A stretch of 64,000 nt of DNA from positions 1 to 64,000 of the forward strand of contig JAEEQN010000013.1 in NCBI GenBank assembly GCA_016285345.1, read 5' to 3'. Under the pieces are notes generated by a model. It ran no database searches and was not told the origin of the DNA. It saw only the letters and a program-made list of their open reading frames with translations. The position numbers were made by a program, and so were the translations under genes. Positions 48,291 to 58,928 of the stretch are shown in pieces. The first letter of the stretch is position 1, and every line of letters begins with the position of its first letter. This DNA is from Victivallales bacterium. Lineage in GTDB: Bacteria > Verrucomicrobiota > Lentisphaeria > Victivallales > UBA1829.

Positions 48291-48716
48291 TTATTGAATG
48301 ACTTCGCCCTCGACGACGTCCTCGTCGTCCTGGGGTTCTTCCGGGGCGTCCTCGGTCTCGGTGATCACCACGTCGATGCTCTTCACCTTCATACCGGTGA
48401 AGTCGACGATCTGGTCGTAGACCGCCTTCTGGACCGCGGCGGCGACTTCGCCGAACTTGAAGCCGTAGGCCGCGACGATGAGGATCTCCAGGCTGACTTC
48501 GCCGTTGGCTTCGGTCACGACGATGGACTTGTCGAAACGGCGCTTGCTGCCGACAAGGTCCGCCAGGTCGGACACGATGGAGGAGCCGGAGAACCGGATG
48601 AAGCCGGGAATGCCTTCGACGGCCTTCCGGGCGAGGGAGATGATGACGCTTTCGTGAACCGTGAAGGACGCGGGATCAGCCGCTGTCTCGGTCTTTTTGC
48701 TGGTGTCTTTGGCCAT
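48291..48716 (-). CDS. Asp23/Gls24 family protein (second copy)
   Basis: The 141-residue protein has the Asp23 domain: FTVHESVIISLARKAVEGIP, GSSIVSDLADLV, VSLEILIVAAYGFKFGEVAA and VYDQIVDFTGMKVKSIDVVI, followed by an acidic tail (EEPQDDEDVVEGEV). Members coat the inner face of the membrane or influence fatty-acid synthesis. AAAGGAG precedes the ATG and the upstream paralogue ends 12 bases before. Confidence 0.85.
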   Translation of the reverse strand: MAKDTSKKTETAADPASFTVHESVIISLARKAVEGIPGFIRFSGSSIVSDLADLVGSKRRFDKSIVVTEANGEVSLEILIVAAYGFKFGEVAAAVQKAVYDQIVDFTGMKVKSIDVVITETEDAPEEPQDDEDVVEGEVIQ

Positions 48717-48728
48717 GATGCTTCTCCT

Positions 48729-49178
48729 TTATTCCGTTTCTTTCCCGGTGTCCGCGTCGCCGGCTTCCTTCTCCGCCGGACGCTCCTCGATGCCCTTGAT
48801 GTCCACGCTGACGGAAGCGACCTTGATGCCGGTCATGTCGAGGACTGCCTTGGAAACCTTTTTCTGGATTTCCGCGATCAGGGCGGGGAATTTGTAGCCG
48901 AAATAGGGGTTGATCGCGACCGTGATCGCGATCGACTCGTCCTTGTGCTCGATCTGGATGGAACGGTCCTGCATGCGTTTGCTCCGGACGAGATCGGCGA
49001 AGTCGTCGATCAGCGAGCTGCCGGAAAGGCGCGCCACGCCTTCGATCCCGAGCACGGTGCGTTTGACGATGGTGGAAATGGCTCCGTCGAGGATCCGGAT
49101 CGTACCGACGGCGACGCCCTTGACCTCGTAGGCGCCGGGGACAGTGGAAACGGACTCGGCCTGCTGCGTGTTGCTCAT
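48729..49178 (-). CDS. Asp23/Gls24 family protein (first copy)
   Basis: The 149-residue Asp23-domain protein has YEVKGVAVGTIRILDGAIST, GIEGVARLSGSSLIDDFADL, ITVAINPYFGYKFPALIAEI and LDMTGIKVASVSVDI. It follows accC by about 27 bases with AAGGAGG before the start. The arrangement accB-accC-asp23 matches accB-accC-yqhY of Bacillus subtilis, where the Asp23-type protein YqhY affects acetyl-CoA carboxylase. The tail is charged. Confidence 0.88.
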   Translation of the reverse strand: MSNTQQAESVSTVPGAYEVKGVAVGTIRILDGAISTIVKRTVLGIEGVARLSGSSLIDDFADLVRSKRMQDRSIQIEHKDESIAITVAINPYFGYKFPALIAEIQKKVSKAVLDMTGIKVASVSVDIKGIEERPAEKEAGDADTGKETE

Positions 49179-52763: not shown

Positions 52764-52905
52764 ACAATTGATGTATCATTTACTATAGCATCATATCGGA
52801 TTTTTTCAAGCGGGAAACCGGAAAAAAAGAAAAGAAAACAGCCTCTGCCTGCTCAGTTGAACAGGCAGGAGGAACGATTGATTTCCTCGACATCTGTCCC
52901 CGGAC

Positions 52906-53328
52906 TCAGCGGGTGTTGTATTGTTCGTCGTAGGTGCGGACGGCGACGTTGTGGAGGCCGCGGAACGAGCAGAGGTCGAGTATCTCGACCACGCGGCTGA
53001 ACGCGACGGCCTTGTCGCAGTCCACGCGGATGCGGCGGTCCTGATTCTCCTCGGAGAGCTCCAGCAGGATCTGGTGCAGCTCGGAGATCGTGACCGGACG
53101 GCCGTTGTAGAACAGCATTTTCTCCTTGTTGACGCCGATGACCATGGTATCGTTGTCCGGCGGCACGTCGAGCGAGGACGTGGAGACGGGCAGGTCGATG
53201 TCGATGTCGCGGTTTTCCTTCTTGGCGACCGTGGTGATCAGGAAGAAAATGAGGAGGAGGAACACGCAGTCGATCAGCGACGACATGCCGATCTCGAGCT
53301 TATCCTCCGATGAACGTCTGATGCGCAT
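52906..53328 (-). CDS. ExbD/TolR-family protein (distal copy)
   Basis: The 140-residue protein has a short cytoplasmic N-terminus, one membrane helix with the proton-path Asp (MSSLIDCVFLLLIFFLITTV, residues 15-34) and a periplasmic ExbD domain. With an ExbB/TolQ protein it would use the proton gradient to move a periplasmic partner. It is the last gene of the four-gene operon, 24 bases after exbB. No tonB gene is nearby. Confidence 0.9.
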   Translation of the reverse strand: MRIRRSSEDKLEIGMSSLIDCVFLLLIFFLITTVAKKENRDIDIDLPVSTSSLDVPPDNDTMVIGVNKEKMLFYNGRPVTISELHQILLELSEENQDRRIRVDCDKAVAFSRVVEILDLCSFRGLHNVAVRTYDEQYNTR

Positions 53329-53352
53329 GTGGGGCTGTCCCGTGGTTCCGCG

Positions 53353-54099
53353 TTACTTCTTCTGCGCATCGAGCGCGGCGAACATGGTTTCGAGGTTTTC
53401 CTCGATGGCGAGTTCGGCGATGGAGAGTTTCTGCTTCAGGTAATGGTACGCGCCGAGCGCCGGAATGGCGAGCACGAGGCCCATGTCGGTGGTGATGAGC
53501 GCCTTGCTGATGGAGTCGGCGAGAAGCGCGGCGTCGCCGGTGTCGCCGAGGATGGCGACCTTCGAGAACGCTTCGATCATGCCGATCACGGTGCCGAGCA
53601 GACCGAGCATCGGGGCCATCGTGGCGATGATCGCCAGCGGATAGCTGCGTTGTCTGTGGCGCTCGATCGCACGGGCGGCGGCGTCCGCGACAGCCATCTG
53701 CAGGCGGGCTTCGTCCATGCCGGGGTGATCCACGATGCAGGCTCCGGCATCGGCGAGGATGCTGGGCTTCGCTTCGGCTTCCTTGCGGATTGCGTCAGCA
53801 TCATTTTTCGCGATGGCATCGGCGAAGAAATCGGCGTAGTAAGCGGGCGCAAGGTATTTTTTGCGCATGCGGATGAGGCGTTCGACGAGGAATCCGATGG
53901 CGGCGGCGCTGAGGAGAAGGAGCACGGCGGAGGTCATGCCGCCGTTGATGATCTCCTGAATCCAGTCGATCGTCAGTTCTTCGGCGGGCGCGTCTGCGGT
54001 CTCAGCGGCGGTTTCGGCGGCGTTCTGGGCGGCAAGGAATCCGGGGAGGCAGAAGAGCGCCGCAGCGGAGAGGATCGAAGCACGGATGGGAAGTTTCAT
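53353..54099 (-). CDS. ExbB/TolQ/MotA-family proton channel with signal peptide
   Basis: The 248-residue protein has a signal peptide (MKLPIRASILSAAALFCLPG...LAAQ), a short periplasmic segment, then the three-helix ExbB core including SYPLAIIATMAPMLGLLGTV and ITTDMGLVLAIPALGAYHYL. It forms the channel that energises ExbD. The ATG at 54099 with AAAGG upstream is preferred; an earlier ATG at 54132 has no site. A cleaved N-terminal extension is not found in E. coli ExbB. Confidence 0.9.
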   Translation of the reverse strand: MKLPIRASILSAAALFCLPGFLAAQNAAETAAETADAPAEELTIDWIQEIINGGMTSAVLLLLSAAAIGFLVERLIRMRKKYLAPAYYADFFADAIAKNDADAIRKEAEAKPSILADAGACIVDHPGMDEARLQMAVADAAARAIERHRQRSYPLAIIATMAPMLGLLGTVIGMIEAFSKVAILGDTGDAALLADSISKALITTDMGLVLAIPALGAYHYLKQKLSIAELAIEENLETMFAALDAQKK

Positions 54100-54147
54100 G
54101 GAGAACCTTTCGTAGTGTTTTATAAGATTCATATTTCGTGATAATCG

Positions 54148-57024
54148 TCAGGGGAGTCTGGGGCGCGTGACAGGACGCGTAATCGGAGACGTAGTGTTCG
54201 GGCCTGAGGTCGCGCCGGGACGCGTGGCCTGCGTCTGCTGGGCGTTGCGGCGCTGTTCGGCGGCGCGTTTCGCGGCATCCGCGGCGGCCTTGGTATCTTC
54301 GCGGACCATGACGAACGAGAACTGGCATTCATCGGGACCGTTTTCCACGCAGAAGAGAATGGTGTTCCAGCCCTTGCGGAAATGGATGGGAATGATGTTT
54401 TCGTGGAGCCCCCAGGTGCTGAGCTCGTCGTCGAACCAGACCTGTTCGCCGTTGATCCAGAGGACGCTGGCGTCATCGGAACCGATCATGGCGAGGACGT
54501 CGGTGTCCTCTTCGAAATGAACGTCCGTGTAGGCGTAGTAGATCGCGTTGTCCATCTTGTCCGGCGTGCGGATGCACGTCGTGTCGGTCTGGACGTAGCG
54601 CCAGCGGAGGCGGATGGGCTTCTGCGTGACCGGGTCGATCTTGCCGTCGTACTCGGCGTCGAGGTCGATCCTGGTCTCGGGCTCCCGTTTCACGCGGTCC
54701 GCGATATGCGTGAATCTGCTGCCGTCGTATTTGCCTTCCCACGGGCCGATCACGTACCAGGAGTCGATGAAGACGAAGCCGTGGCGGGCGGCGTCCTTGC
54801 TGACGCGGCGGCCGGGAACGGATTCCGCGATGATGGCGTAGTCGGCTGGTTCGGAGGCGACGCGCTTGCTGTCGGAATTGCCGACCGGACTGTAGATCGT
54901 GCCGCCGAACTCGAAGTCAAAGTCTCCGCGGAACGCGATGCCGCCTCCGCCGTAGGCATTGCGGTTGTTGCCGAAGCTGGAACCGTTGCCGTTGCCCTGT
55001 CCCTGCCCCTGGCTCTGGCCTTGTCCCTGCCCTTGCCCCTGCTGACCGGCGCGTTCCACGCCTTCACGGCCCATCCGGGCGAGCTGACGCATCATGTCGG
55101 CGAGACTGCCCTGGCCCTGTCCCTGCTGTCCGCCGCGCATGCCGCCCTGCTGATTGCGCATGGCGCGCTGCTGAATGGCGGAGAAGAGACGTTCGGCGGA
55201 GAGCGGGAGGTTGATGCCCGCCATACGCGCAAGGCTGTTCGCGCGGGACGAAAGCGAGTCGGCGGCGTCCTGCAGCGCGGTCATCTGTTCGAGCGCGCGG
55301 AGGAGCTGTTCCTTGGTCATGAACTGGCCTCCGCCGCCCTGGCCGCCGCCCTGCTGACCGCCCTGTTCGCCGTTCTGGCCCATCTGGCCGCCCTGCTGGC
55401 CCGCGCTCTGGGACTCGCTGTTCTGCGGATCGTTCCTGAGCGCTTCGAGGAGCTTGCGGAGGTACTGCTCGGCTTCGACCGTGGCGAATTCGTCGCGGTA
55501 ACGATTGTCCAGGGCTTTCAGGAGGAAGCTTTCAGCGTCGGCATCCATGGCCTTGGCGGCTTCCTGAATGTCGGCAAATTCCGGGTCGACGTTGTAGAGC
55601 CACTCGGACAGCTTCGAATTGATCTCGCTGCGGTGGTTCATCGCGGCCATGTAGGCGGTGTTCGCCAGGTCCGGGAGCTTGCGCTGGACGGTTGTGTTCG
55701 TATCCTTGAGCTGACGGTCGAATCCCTGCATGTCGCGGGAGGCGGTCTGGAGAAACGAAAGGTCCTGCCGCGCGGTGTCGGGGTCGTTGGCCTCAAGCGC
55801 CTTTTTGATCGCCTCATAGGCGTGCTGCGCCTGCTCCATCGTATGTTTCGCGTTCTCGTCGACCTCGTTCACAAGGTAGATTTCGAAGGACGGTACATCG
55901 TAGCCGTAATCATAATCATCATCCCGGACGACCGCCAGTCCGACGCGGCCTGGTCTGAGGAGTGTGGAACCGCGGCGGGGACGGCTCAGCCGTTCCGCCT
56001 CTTCCTTTTCGATGCGTTCACGGCTTTCCGCCGCGGTTTTCTTCGTCTGCTCGTACATTTCCCGCGTGAGGCGGAGCACCTCTTCGGCTGCGTCGAGGAT
56101 TTTCTGCGGGTCCTCGGCGGCGCCGTCGTTCTGCGCCAGGTCACGGGAGAAATGCTCCATGGAGGTCTGGTCCATGTTTTTATTGAGCGAGTCCATGGAA
56201 CGGATGGCGTTCTGGTAGGCGTTCAGCTCGGCGTACTTCGTATCGAGCTGTTCCTCCTTCGCCGCCATGAAGTCCTTCAGCTGCTGGAGCGTGGCGTCGA
56301 CGGGCGGCATTTCGGGCGGCGTGTTCATGATGCCGATGTCGTACACGCCGGACATATCGCCGTTGAGAATGGAGTCGATCATGCGTTCGAGTTCGAGCGA
56401 CTGCCATTCGGCGGTGGCGGGATCGACGCCGTAGTCGAGGTAACTGGACGGATTCGCGCGGAACTTTTCGCTGTTGGCCTTCATGGTCTCCAGCTGACCG
56501 CGGAAGACCGGAATCTGGTCGGACGTCGGGGAATTCTCCAGCTGATGGCGGATGTCTTCGGCGATACGGGCGTTCTCCGTGAACGGTAAGACATAATCAA
56601 ATTCGTTGGACAGGTTTTCGGCGATGTCGAACAGCCTTTCGTACGCCTCCTCCATCGGGTCACGCAGTTCGGAATAGATCTCCTTCAATTCCTCCTTGCG
56701 CTCCTCCATTTTCTCAAGCGTCTCTTCGACCTCCTCCAGTTTCTTGCGGATTTCCTTTTCCTTGCGTTTCTGGACGCGGTCGCGGATTTTCTTGAGCTCG
56801 GCGGGCGGGGCTTCCTTCTTGACCTTCTCCGGGTCGTTCTTATGGGCCTCGCGCTTCGCCTCGTTCTCCTGTTTCTGCTTCAGCGCCTCCTCCAGCGAAT
56901 ACCGGCTGTAGCGGATGAAATCGAGCTGCCAGGCGGCGACGATCGCGCCGAGGTAACAGAGGAGCGTGAGGGCCCAGATGATGGCCGTGTTGCGGCCGGA
57001 CTGCATTTTCCGTTTGCTGTTCAT
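54148..57024 (-). CDS. Large TolA-like membrane-anchored coiled-coil protein of the ExbBD operon
   Basis: The 958-residue protein has one membrane helix (AIIWALTLLCYLGAIVAAW, about 14-34) and then a highly charged coiled coil (EEVEETLEKMEERKEELKEI, about 40-130). A long helical region to about 540 and Gly/Gln-rich low-complexity stretches (about 540-570 and 640-700) follow. A beta-rich domain (about 745-905: FIDSWYVIGPWEGKYDG, MIGSDDASVLWINGEQVWFD, HFRKGWNTILFCVENG) resembles sugar-binding jelly-roll modules, and a Pro/Thr tail ends the chain. The topology, a cytoplasmic start with a long periplasmic rod, parallels TolA and TonB. It lies between exbD and exbB with gaps of 15 and 48 bases. The function is unknown. 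Confidence 0.75.
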   Translation of the reverse strand: MNSKRKMQSGRNTAIIWALTLLCYLGAIVAAWQLDFIRYSRYSLEEALKQKQENEAKREAHKNDPEKVKKEAPPAELKKIRDRVQKRKEKEIRKKLEEVEETLEKMEERKEELKEIYSELRDPMEEAYERLFDIAENLSNEFDYVLPFTENARIAEDIRHQLENSPTSDQIPVFRGQLETMKANSEKFRANPSSYLDYGVDPATAEWQSLELERMIDSILNGDMSGVYDIGIMNTPPEMPPVDATLQQLKDFMAAKEEQLDTKYAELNAYQNAIRSMDSLNKNMDQTSMEHFSRDLAQNDGAAEDPQKILDAAEEVLRLTREMYEQTKKTAAESRERIEKEEAERLSRPRRGSTLLRPGRVGLAVVRDDDYDYGYDVPSFEIYLVNEVDENAKHTMEQAQHAYEAIKKALEANDPDTARQDLSFLQTASRDMQGFDRQLKDTNTTVQRKLPDLANTAYMAAMNHRSEINSKLSEWLYNVDPEFADIQEAAKAMDADAESFLLKALDNRYRDEFATVEAEQYLRKLLEALRNDPQNSESQSAGQQGGQMGQNGEQGGQQGGGQGGGGQFMTKEQLLRALEQMTALQDAADSLSSRANSLARMAGINLPLSAERLFSAIQQRAMRNQQGGMRGGQQGQGQGSLADMMRQLARMGREGVERAGQQGQGQGQGQSQGQGQGNGNGSSFGNNRNAYGGGGIAFRGDFDFEFGGTIYSPVGNSDSKRVASEPADYAIIAESVPGRRVSKDAARHGFVFIDSWYVIGPWEGKYDGSRFTHIADRVKREPETRIDLDAEYDGKIDPVTQKPIRLRWRYVQTDTTCIRTPDKMDNAIYYAYTDVHFEEDTDVLAMIGSDDASVLWINGEQVWFDDELSTWGLHENIIPIHFRKGWNTILFCVENGPDECQFSFVMVREDTKAAADAAKRAAEQRRNAQQTQATRPGATSGPNTTSPITRPVTRPRLP

Positions 57025-57039
57025 ATCAGTGCCTCGCGT

Positions 57040-57519
57040 TTAATCCGATGAGCCGGGGACGTAGAACCGGGATTCGCGGTAGTCGCGCATGCGGACGTCG
57101 ACCTTGTTCAGGTGGTTGATCTGGAGCTTGTCGAGCATGTCGATCACGGTCTGGAACTCCACGTCGGGATCGGCGTACAGCCGCACGTTGATTTCCTCCC
57201 CGGCGCTCCGCGTCATGCGTCCCAGGTTCTCCACGAACTTGTCCACGTCGCCGACGACCCGGAAATCCGGACGCCCGTCCTGAAGGCGGCGTTCCGCCGA
57301 ATAATAGCGGCCGTCCTTGCCGATCGCGAGGATCACGCGGCGCGCGTCCATGCGTTCGGAGATGGTCACGTCGGGGTCCGGGACTTCGATGGGGATCTGT
57401 TTTTCTAGCTTCTTCATCATGGTGGTGATGAGGAAGAAGATGAGGAGGAGGAAGACGCAGTCGATGAGCGGCGACATTTCGAGCGTGACGTCGTCATCGT
57501 CTTTTTTTCGGATTCTCAT
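57040..57519 (-). CDS. ExbD/TolR-family protein (proximal copy)
   Basis: The 159-residue protein has the membrane helix MSPLIDCVFLLLIFFLITTM with the conserved Asp and a periplasmic domain with a longer insert than the distal copy (MDARRVILAIGKDGRYYSAE). Two different ExbD proteins in one operon could form a heterodimer in the channel. It is the first gene of the operon; the ribosome site is weak. Confidence 0.9.
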   Translation of the reverse strand: MRIRKKDDDDVTLEMSPLIDCVFLLLIFFLITTMMKKLEKQIPIEVPDPDVTISERMDARRVILAIGKDGRYYSAERRLQDGRPDFRVVGDVDKFVENLGRMTRSAGEEINVRLYADPDVEFQTVIDMLDKLQINHLNKVDVRMRDYRESRFYVPGSSD

Positions 57520-57794: not shown

Positions 57795-58886
57795 TTACTC
57801 GGCGGTTTTCTCTTCGCCTTCAGCGGGCTCAACGGGCTCGACGGATTCGAGCGCCTGCCATTCGCGCTGCTTCGCCTGCTCCTCGGCGTTCGGGAACGCG
57901 GAGATGAAGCCGTCGCCGGGCTTGGAGCCTTTCGGACGCGGACCGCCGTTGAAGCCGAAGCCCTTCTCATACTGGCCGGCGGTAACGGGTCCGACGGGCT
58001 GGATGCCGGGGCGAATCTTGGACTGCTCGCCGCGGCGCTGGGAGAAGAGCCACTCCCACGTCTTCGGATTGGAATACGCTCTGTCCCAGCAGTTATGGCC
58101 GACACCGAAGAATTCGCGCAGATAGACGTTCGTGTTACCGGCCGCCCTCATGGTGATGAACATCCAGCGGGCGAGCTGGGGCGGGACGGTCGTGTCGTCG
58201 CTGCCGTGGAAAATCAGGACGGGCAGGTCTTTCATCTTTTCGGCGCGGTTCGGATCACTGCCGCCGCAGCAGGGCATGCCGGCCGCGAAGATGTCGGTGC
58301 CGTAACGGGCCAGGAGGTCCCAGCAGCCGTAACCGCCCATGGAGAGACCGGTCACATAGACGCGTTTCTTGTCGGCGTCGAACTCTTTGATCTTCTTTTC
58401 GATCAGCACGGGGATCATGCCGAGCGCCTGATAGGGTTCCTCCATGAGGTCGCCCATGGCGCCGCCGCGGTGAAGCGGAGCCCAGACCTGGTCGCTCGGG
58501 CATTCCGGGGCCAGCACGATGACTTTGCGCTTGCCTTCGCGCATTTGCTTCACGATCTCGGGTACGGCGAGACGGAGCTGCGCGAGGTTCTCTTCGCCGC
58601 GTTCGCCGAAGCCGTGCAGGAAGACCAGGATCGCGAATTTGCCGGGCTCGTCTTCGTTGTACACGCCCTGGCAGTAACGCAGTTCGCCGTTGCAGTTCGT
58701 CAGGACTTCCTGCTTCATTTCCAGCTCGTTCAGCGTGCGGATTTCGTTGGCGAATCTCTGCTGGATCTGTTCGGAGGGTTCCTCCATCGGGGAGATGACG
58801 GCCGATTCGAAAGCCGGATCGGAGGAGCAGGCGGCTCCGATGGCGGCGAGGGCGGCGCATCCGAGCACGAGCAATTGTTTTTTCAT
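57795..58886 (-). CDS. Alpha/beta-hydrolase lipoprotein (esterase/peptidase of the prolyl oligopeptidase type)
   Basis: The 363-residue protein has a lipoprotein signal (MKKQLLVLGCAALAAIGAAC, lipidated Cys about 20). The hydrolase fold shows an oxyanion-loop segment FLHGFGERGEEN, the nucleophile elbow GLSMGGYGCWD, the acid in FHGSDDTTVPP and the His in GVGHNCWDRAYS. It probably cleaves esters, for instance acyl groups on plant sugars, at the cell surface. The start is the ATG at 58886, with AAAGGA upstream, not the earlier one at 58925. The C-terminal 80 residues are Gly/Glu/Pro-rich. Confidence 0.85.
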   Translation of the reverse strand: MKKQLLVLGCAALAAIGAACSSDPAFESAVISPMEEPSEQIQQRFANEIRTLNELEMKQEVLTNCNGELRYCQGVYNEDEPGKFAILVFLHGFGERGEENLAQLRLAVPEIVKQMREGKRKVIVLAPECPSDQVWAPLHRGGAMGDLMEEPYQALGMIPVLIEKKIKEFDADKKRVYVTGLSMGGYGCWDLLARYGTDIFAAGMPCCGGSDPNRAEKMKDLPVLIFHGSDDTTVPPQLARWMFITMRAAGNTNVYLREFFGVGHNCWDRAYSNPKTWEWLFSQRRGEQSKIRPGIQPVGPVTAGQYEKGFGFNGGPRPKGSKPGDGFISAFPNAEEQAKQREWQALESVEPVEPAEGEEKTAE

Positions 58887-58928
58887 GGCGGTAAGTCCTT
58901 TCAGTGTGTTGGTATATTTTTTCAATAA

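Follow-up and report, generated by a model that had tools for sequence, protein, structure and literature searches.

What does a bacterium do with an ExbB/ExbD motor whose operon carries two different exbD genes and a long, single-span protein of no curated family? The question is raised by a locus within a 64,000-nucleotide stretch of DNA from a Victivallales bacterium (contig JAEEQN010000013.1 of assembly GCA_016285345.1), the whole of which is referred to here as the window. An earlier note, written from the sequence alone, had proposed a new energised envelope system in which the large protein is the TolA- or TonB-like moving part. The present analysis supports this proposal, including through a docking motif in relatives that have a single ExbD, and we consider it very probable that the large protein is the transducer of the motor. 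In our best reading, it represents a further class of force transducer on 5:2 motors, beside TonB/TolA and the vWA proteins of 2025.

A four-gene locus with two exbD genes

The locus is a row of four minus-strand genes, running exbD1, the 958-aa single-span protein, exbB, and exbD2 (Table 1), separated by gaps of 15, 15, and 24 bp (in gene order from exbD1). A check of the open reading frames confirmed the coordinates and order given in the earlier note, and Pfam confirmed its assignment of ExbD, ExbB, and ExbD. The MotA_ExbB and ExbD domains exceed the Pfam cutoffs, and the 958-aa protein has no Pfam or NCBIfam match above a curated cutoff. Both ExbDs carry the transmembrane Asp (SPLIDCVF in ExbD1 and SSLIDCVF in ExbD2). 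ExbB, which begins with an apparent signal peptide (read from the sequence by eye, with no prediction program), has equivalents of the pore threonines (TolQ T145 and T178) and of the docking serine (TolQ S28).

The hairpin that follows exbD2 likely marks the end of the operon; its position is the sole argument, and terminator-like sites occur in the region at chance frequency (7 found versus 6.3 expected). No sigma-70-type promoter was found upstream of exbD1. An upstream esterase gene (57795-58925) was considered as a part of the system and rejected: it is present in most of the genus and was undetected both at L033, the most divergent locus of the genus, and outside the genus. Elsewhere in the window, two adjoining Asp23-like reading frames (48291-49178) were seen by eye beside accC/accB-like genes.

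Table 1. Features of the locus, with positions in the window
Feature	Position	Strand	Evidence
exbD1, 159 aa, ExbD/TolR family	57040..57519	-	Pfam PF02472, E=2.6e-19
Large protein (probable transducer), 958 aa, without curated Pfam/NCBIfam family	54148..57024	-	
Membrane helix, single, residues 10-33 of large protein	56926..56997	-	AF2 helix
Predicted alpha-helical rod region, long, with low-confidence breaks, residues 34-657	55054..56925	-	AF2 model
Gly/Gln-rich linker, predicted disordered, residues 658-725	54850..55053	-	AF2, pLDDT mostly <50
Jelly-roll head, all-beta, GH2 sugar-binding/PA14-like predicted fold, residues 726-908	54301..54849	-	AF2 and structure matches
exbB, 259 aa, MotA/TolQ/ExbB domain	53353..54132	-	Pfam PF01618, 2e-26
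exbD2, 140 aa, ExbD/TolR family	52906..53328	-	Pfam PF02472, 2.8e-26
Terminator-like hairpin, 10 pairs, T-rich tail, directly after exbD2	52845..52868	-	Consensus match only

Predicted anatomy of the large protein

An AlphaFold2 model of the full protein (41 sequences; mean pLDDT, 63) bears out the single span, helical stretches, Gly/Gln-rich part, and C-terminal module that had been read from the sequence, the module being beta. In both the model and the hydropathy, one N-terminal membrane helix precedes a long periplasmic part, as in TonB/TolA transducers. Pfam detected no TonB_C, TonB_2, or TolA domain in any of 41 family members; NCBIfam gave a single weak tolA_full match (E=1.7e-4), and no member matched a vWA domain. 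One member has an added LamG-type domain.

The earlier description of the C-terminal module as sugar-binding-like holds at the level of predicted fold only, and likeness of fold shows no binding. Modeled alone, the head reached a mean pLDDT of 74, and its best structural match was to a GH2 exo-chitosanase, in the sugar-binding region of that enzyme (Z=11.3 over 143 residues at 3.4 Å). Matches to GH2 N-terminal sugar-binding regions and GH31-associated jelly rolls had Z scores of 9 to 11.3, values of 9 to 11 being not far above those of common jelly-roll arrangements. Foldseek retrieved PA14 and CBM35 domains (E=3.5e-5), and a structure search with the full-length model returned the same head folds again and nothing for the rod. 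Sequence likeness to sugar-domain enzymes is marginal: when PDB sequences were searched with a profile of the head, a GH35 enzyme scored E=0.26 and a GH2 exo-glucosaminidase E=1.9. The top rows of that search were designed repeat proteins, which matched over short repeats and were rejected as artifacts. Secreted-type proteins, some of them with GH2, pectate-lyase-like, or GHL10 domains, contain weak relatives of the module. Invariant positions of the head are W756, Y757, G760, P761, P782, Y792, G794, W808, Y830, D850, D851, N858, G885, N887, and S903. Given this predicted fold, the head may bind a glycan, although we would lean slightly against it.

At seven loci (L123, L124, L128, L130, L141, L142, and L147), rod and head are encoded by separate, adjoining genes. 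At these loci, the SxxxH helix is on the rod and, as judged by eye and by hydropathy, a signal-peptide-like N terminus is on the head protein (read at the six loci other than L124). This arrangement predicts a periplasmic head, and the junction appears to be a natural domain boundary.

Conservation and spread

The large protein is present, in the same operon, in all 13 genomes of the genus that were searched. A single-sequence search of other genera of the family gave weak matches only, to the C-terminal part. Five genus genomes also encode a second, shorter paralogue, in the order exbB(long)-exbD-exbD-transducer in the four with enough contig. In the paralogue system (L034 6763-10623, L035 5642-9544, L036, and L037 in the genus, and L120), ExbB is approximately 480 to 520 aa long, with an extra N-terminal region of approximately 200 to 250 aa and no Pfam match beyond MotA_ExbB. 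L120 is a two-ExbD locus labeled Salegentibacter (Bacteroidota) that groups with the rumen Lentisphaeria paralogue; its label may be wrong, or the locus may have been transferred.

Searched against 198 genomes of the class, a profile of the C-terminal module separated two groups: members, which scored E≤2e-38 and to which a fragment at a contig edge in G066 is added, and large secreted proteins, which scored E≥6e-18. Members with enough contig adjoin exbB and exbD, while none of 14 fetched loci with weaker, secreted-protein matches has exbBD alongside. In the phylum, approximately 29 of 388 sampled genomes gave a strong module match. A scan of GTDB contigs by two peptide patterns, from which 80 of 107 loci were kept and which sets a lower bound on spread, placed the module, by record titles, in Lentisphaerota, Kiritimatiellota (Kiritimatiellae), Verrucomicrobiota (Opitutia, Chthoniobacter, Haloferula), Planctomycetota (Phycisphaerales and others), KSB1, and Betaproteobacteria (Massilia, Duganella, Pseudoduganella, Pelomonas).

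The earlier note had named absence of the large protein from other exbBD loci as part of the outcome that would speak against its proposal. Instead, HMMs placed exbB and exbD beside the module at 71 of the 80 loci, over several phyla; the other nine comprise three with exbD at a contig edge, five cut at the module by a contig end, and one 69-aa fragment (L166). The note had also suggested a search for the four-gene order in PVC genomes: the association of the genes recurs over several phyla, but the exact order, exbD1-large protein-exbB-exbD2, was seen only in the window's genus, and the usual order elsewhere is exbB-exbD(-exbD)-transducer. That gene order unlike all other loci is the one point in favor of reading the large protein as a chance neighbor, unrelated to the motor genes. 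Against the co-occurrence above, and the clade specificity of ExbB and the correlated residues described below, we regard a chance neighborhood as practically negligible.

No neighbor is conserved beyond exbB, exbD, and transducer parts, and none hints at a target. At the Haloferula luteola locus (L111 8666-12261), the operon is directly followed by an Mla-type set for outer-membrane lipid transport (MlaE permease, ABC ATPase, MlaD, and ABC auxiliary lipoprotein) that is not a conserved neighbor elsewhere. At four loci of Kiritimatiellae and Massilia (L146, L148, L125, and L150), tandem transducer genes stand behind one exbB-exbD; at L125, L148, and L150, both transducers have the SxxxH helix.

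A dedicated motor clade and an old pair of ExbDs

Maximum-likelihood analysis grouped the 55 ExbBs linked to the module, without exception, in a single clade (support, 99/98). This clade is separate from the exbB-exbD-exbD sets of the same and related genomes and from the TolQ-like protein encoded on contig C28 of the window's genome, a row that is very long-branched. The large protein and its relatives are consistently encoded together with a dedicated motor clade, and pairwise distances among ExbBs correlate with those among head modules (Mantel r=0.66; 0 of 2,000 permutations). ExbBs of two-ExbD systems cluster together (83/94), and the ExbDs of these systems split into two clades, D1 (100/99), which includes ExbD1 of the window, and D2 (99/94), which includes ExbD2. 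The D2 clade also takes in one row counted as single-ExbD, the other ExbD of which was lost at a contig start. The two clades point to one old duplication, retained since, and the pair may form a D1+D2 heterodimeric axle.

The transmembrane Asp motif is present in 100 of 100 ExbDs, those of the window included. Likewise, the pore Thr of ExbB is found at the T145 equivalent in 53 of 55 sequences and at the T178 equivalent in 55 of 55, the window having both. Conservation of these residues would imply an active motor. They bear directly on the alternative of a static tether or adhesion scaffold, in which the head anchors an inner-membrane complex to peptidoglycan or outer-membrane glycans and performs no work. 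The long rod, the lectin-like predicted head, and the LamG-type domain of one member would suit such a scaffold, but conserved proton-path residues and dedicated motor subunits would be pointless in it, and we consider it very unlikely.

The putative docking helix and the ExbB contact serine

TonB and TolA share the docking motif Ser-x3-His-x6-Leu-x3-Ser, in which Ser16/His20 of TonB contact Ser34/Trp38 of ExbB and Ser18/His22 of TolA contact Ser28/Trp32 of TolQ (PMC12215075). When 40 transducer helices from single-ExbD systems were aligned on the helix His, with Ser at -4 preferred in the choice, His was present in every helix, Ser at -4 in 38, and Leu, Val, or Ile at +7 in 39; the final motif position is most often Thr or Gly. 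TonB and TolA of Escherichia coli MG1655 fit the same S-x3-H-x6-[LIV] pattern. As a control, SxxxH was found in the strongest N-terminal hydrophobic segment of 8 of 805 other ORFs.

The two-ExbD subclass, to which the window belongs, is more varied. L102-L104, L107, and L111 retain the His; elsewhere, L119 aside, it is replaced by Tyr (in the window's genus), Gln, Glu, Ser/Thr, or another residue. In the window's genus, the docking Ser is Thr (Ser in one genome), the His is Tyr, and the Leu at +7 is mostly Ala. The window transducer thus lacks the TonB/TolA motif, with T20-x3-Y24 at the positions of Ser-x3-His in single-ExbD relatives and A31 at the position of the Leu, and its ExbB keeps the contact Ser.

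Across the family, the ExbB residue at the position of TolQ Ser28 is Ser in 40 of 42 systems with a His-type helix versus 5 of 13 without (Fisher, 1e-5, a value that ignores relatedness; on the tree, the losses form about four separate groups). Within the two-ExbD clade, all four His-type members have this Ser. The equivalent of TolQ W32, the Trp that completes the TonB network, is Leu, Val, or Ile throughout the linked ExbBs. By sequence comparison, then, single-ExbD members have a TonB/TolA-type docking motif, and the family has a correlated contact Ser. The putative contact between transducer and ExbB is argued from this motif and from correlated residues with few independent losses. Because the window's subclass has Tyr for His, we infer docking of the window transducer at the TonB/TolA site from its relatives.

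Ton and Tol components elsewhere in the genome

The same motor superfamily and the helix motif in relatives could be taken to indicate an ordinary Ton or Tol system whose C terminus has diverged, serving TonB-dependent receptors or Tol-Pal work. The earlier statement that no tonB, tolB, or pal is present stands for the locus, where tolB and pal are absent and a Tol-Pal linkage is accordingly lacking. It does not stand genome-wide: a separate TolQ-TolR-TolA-like set with a TonB_2 domain (5.6e-9) is encoded on C28 of the window's genome, and an OmpA/Pal-type domain is found in 13 of 13 genus genomes, on a contig other than that of the window's locus. TolB_N was detected in 0 of 13. The plug domain of TonB-dependent receptors was likewise found in 0 of 13 genus genomes (draft assemblies; controls were detected), so the system does not feed TonB-dependent receptors visible to the profiles used. 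With the separate TolQRA-like set, the separate ExbB clade, and the absence of TonB_C, TonB_2, and TolA domains from the 41 members, an ordinary Ton or Tol role is decidedly improbable. The window's genome also holds another exbB-exbD-exbD set, behind two TPR-type genes (L071 7202-13399; G000 C51), with no transducer gene directly downstream.

Proposed mechanism and significance

We conclude that the locus probably encodes a self-contained inner-membrane system for proton-driven force transduction, with a dedicated rod transducer and head. In the mechanism that we propose, ExbB, expected to be a pentamer, would assemble with the D1+D2 pair into a 5:2 motor, and the single transducer helix would dock at the site used by TonB and TolA, on the outer face of ExbB. 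The long helical rod and the flexible Gly/Gln linker, as modeled, would span the periplasm and allow the jelly-roll head to engage a wall or outer-membrane target, probably a glycan or a partner that bears one. Protons flowing through the motor might then turn or pull the transducer such that the target is moved or released. A broader formulation, that of a widespread transducer class by which ExbBD-type motors act on glycans by way of a lectin-like head and in which one subclass uses an obligate two-ExbD heterodimer and a retuned docking helix, is put forward tentatively and with more doubt than conviction.

The same components could instead form a motor-coupled sensor, in which the head reads the state of periplasmic glycans or wall and the transducer gates proton flow or signaling without pulling. 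The sugar-domain-like predicted head would fit this role, as would the lack of a conserved outer-membrane partner gene in the neighborhood; moreover, in Xanthomonas, pectate lyase activity, but not iron uptake, depends on a second exbD within a tonB cluster (PMC3551730). However, no regulator is conserved beside the operon, docking helices of the TonB/TolA type are known for force transduction, and the pore Thr and ExbD Asp suggest an active motor, which makes a pure sensor unlikely. An anti-phage defense motor resembling Zorya was also considered. Zorya likewise combines a MotA-type motor and a long helical part, but no PADLOC model matches any of the four proteins (E≤0.01) and no effector gene is conserved alongside, leaving this explanation extremely unlikely.

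If a distinct class of transducer, with ExbBs in a clade of their own and a head resembling sugar domains, is borne out, proton-driven envelope work would be more varied than known, and mechanical work might reach glycans directly. The family offers several natural tests: the rod/head gene splits, of where force passes from rod to head, and both the old ExbD duplication, which points to a heterodimeric axle, and the repeated joint losses of the docking His and the ExbB contact Ser, of the working of the motor. The system is present in named strains of Massilia, Duganella, Pelomonas, and Haloferula, which opens it to ordinary gene deletion.

Comparison with known systems

The class of the 958-aa protein is apparently undescribed: no description was found in the literature searched, most subscription papers and all preprints lying outside the search. 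In the literature found, the only transducers described as docking laterally on ExbBD/TolQR motors are TonB, TolA, and, since 2025, vWA proteins. The system resembles TonB-ExbB-ExbD and TolA-TolQ-TolR in its motor with pore Thr and Asp, its single-span transducer with a long periplasmic part, and, in single-ExbD members, the Ser-x3-His-x6-Leu motif with which the ExbB contact Ser is conserved. It differs in that a predicted jelly-roll head takes the place of the TonB/TolA C-terminal fold, the network Trp of ExbB is absent, the ExbBs form their own clade, and there are often two ExbDs; furthermore, no receptor, tolB, or pal is linked, and the window has Thr/Tyr for Ser/His.

The vWA force transducers described in 2025 from PVC and other bacteria (PMC12204202) share the layout, whereas the C terminus here is a predicted GH2/PA14-like jelly roll and no TPR gene is linked. 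The tonB-exbB-exbD1-exbD2 cluster of Xanthomonas (PMC3551730) likewise combines two heterologous exbD genes in one cluster and is linked to plant polysaccharide handling, a further likeness; it has a true TonB, however, and no rod/head transducer of the window's kind. Finally, the predicted head fold resembles GH2 N-terminal sugar-binding domains and PA14/CBM35 jelly rolls, but here, with marginal likeness of sequence, the head sits on what is probably the membrane-anchored transducer of a motor.
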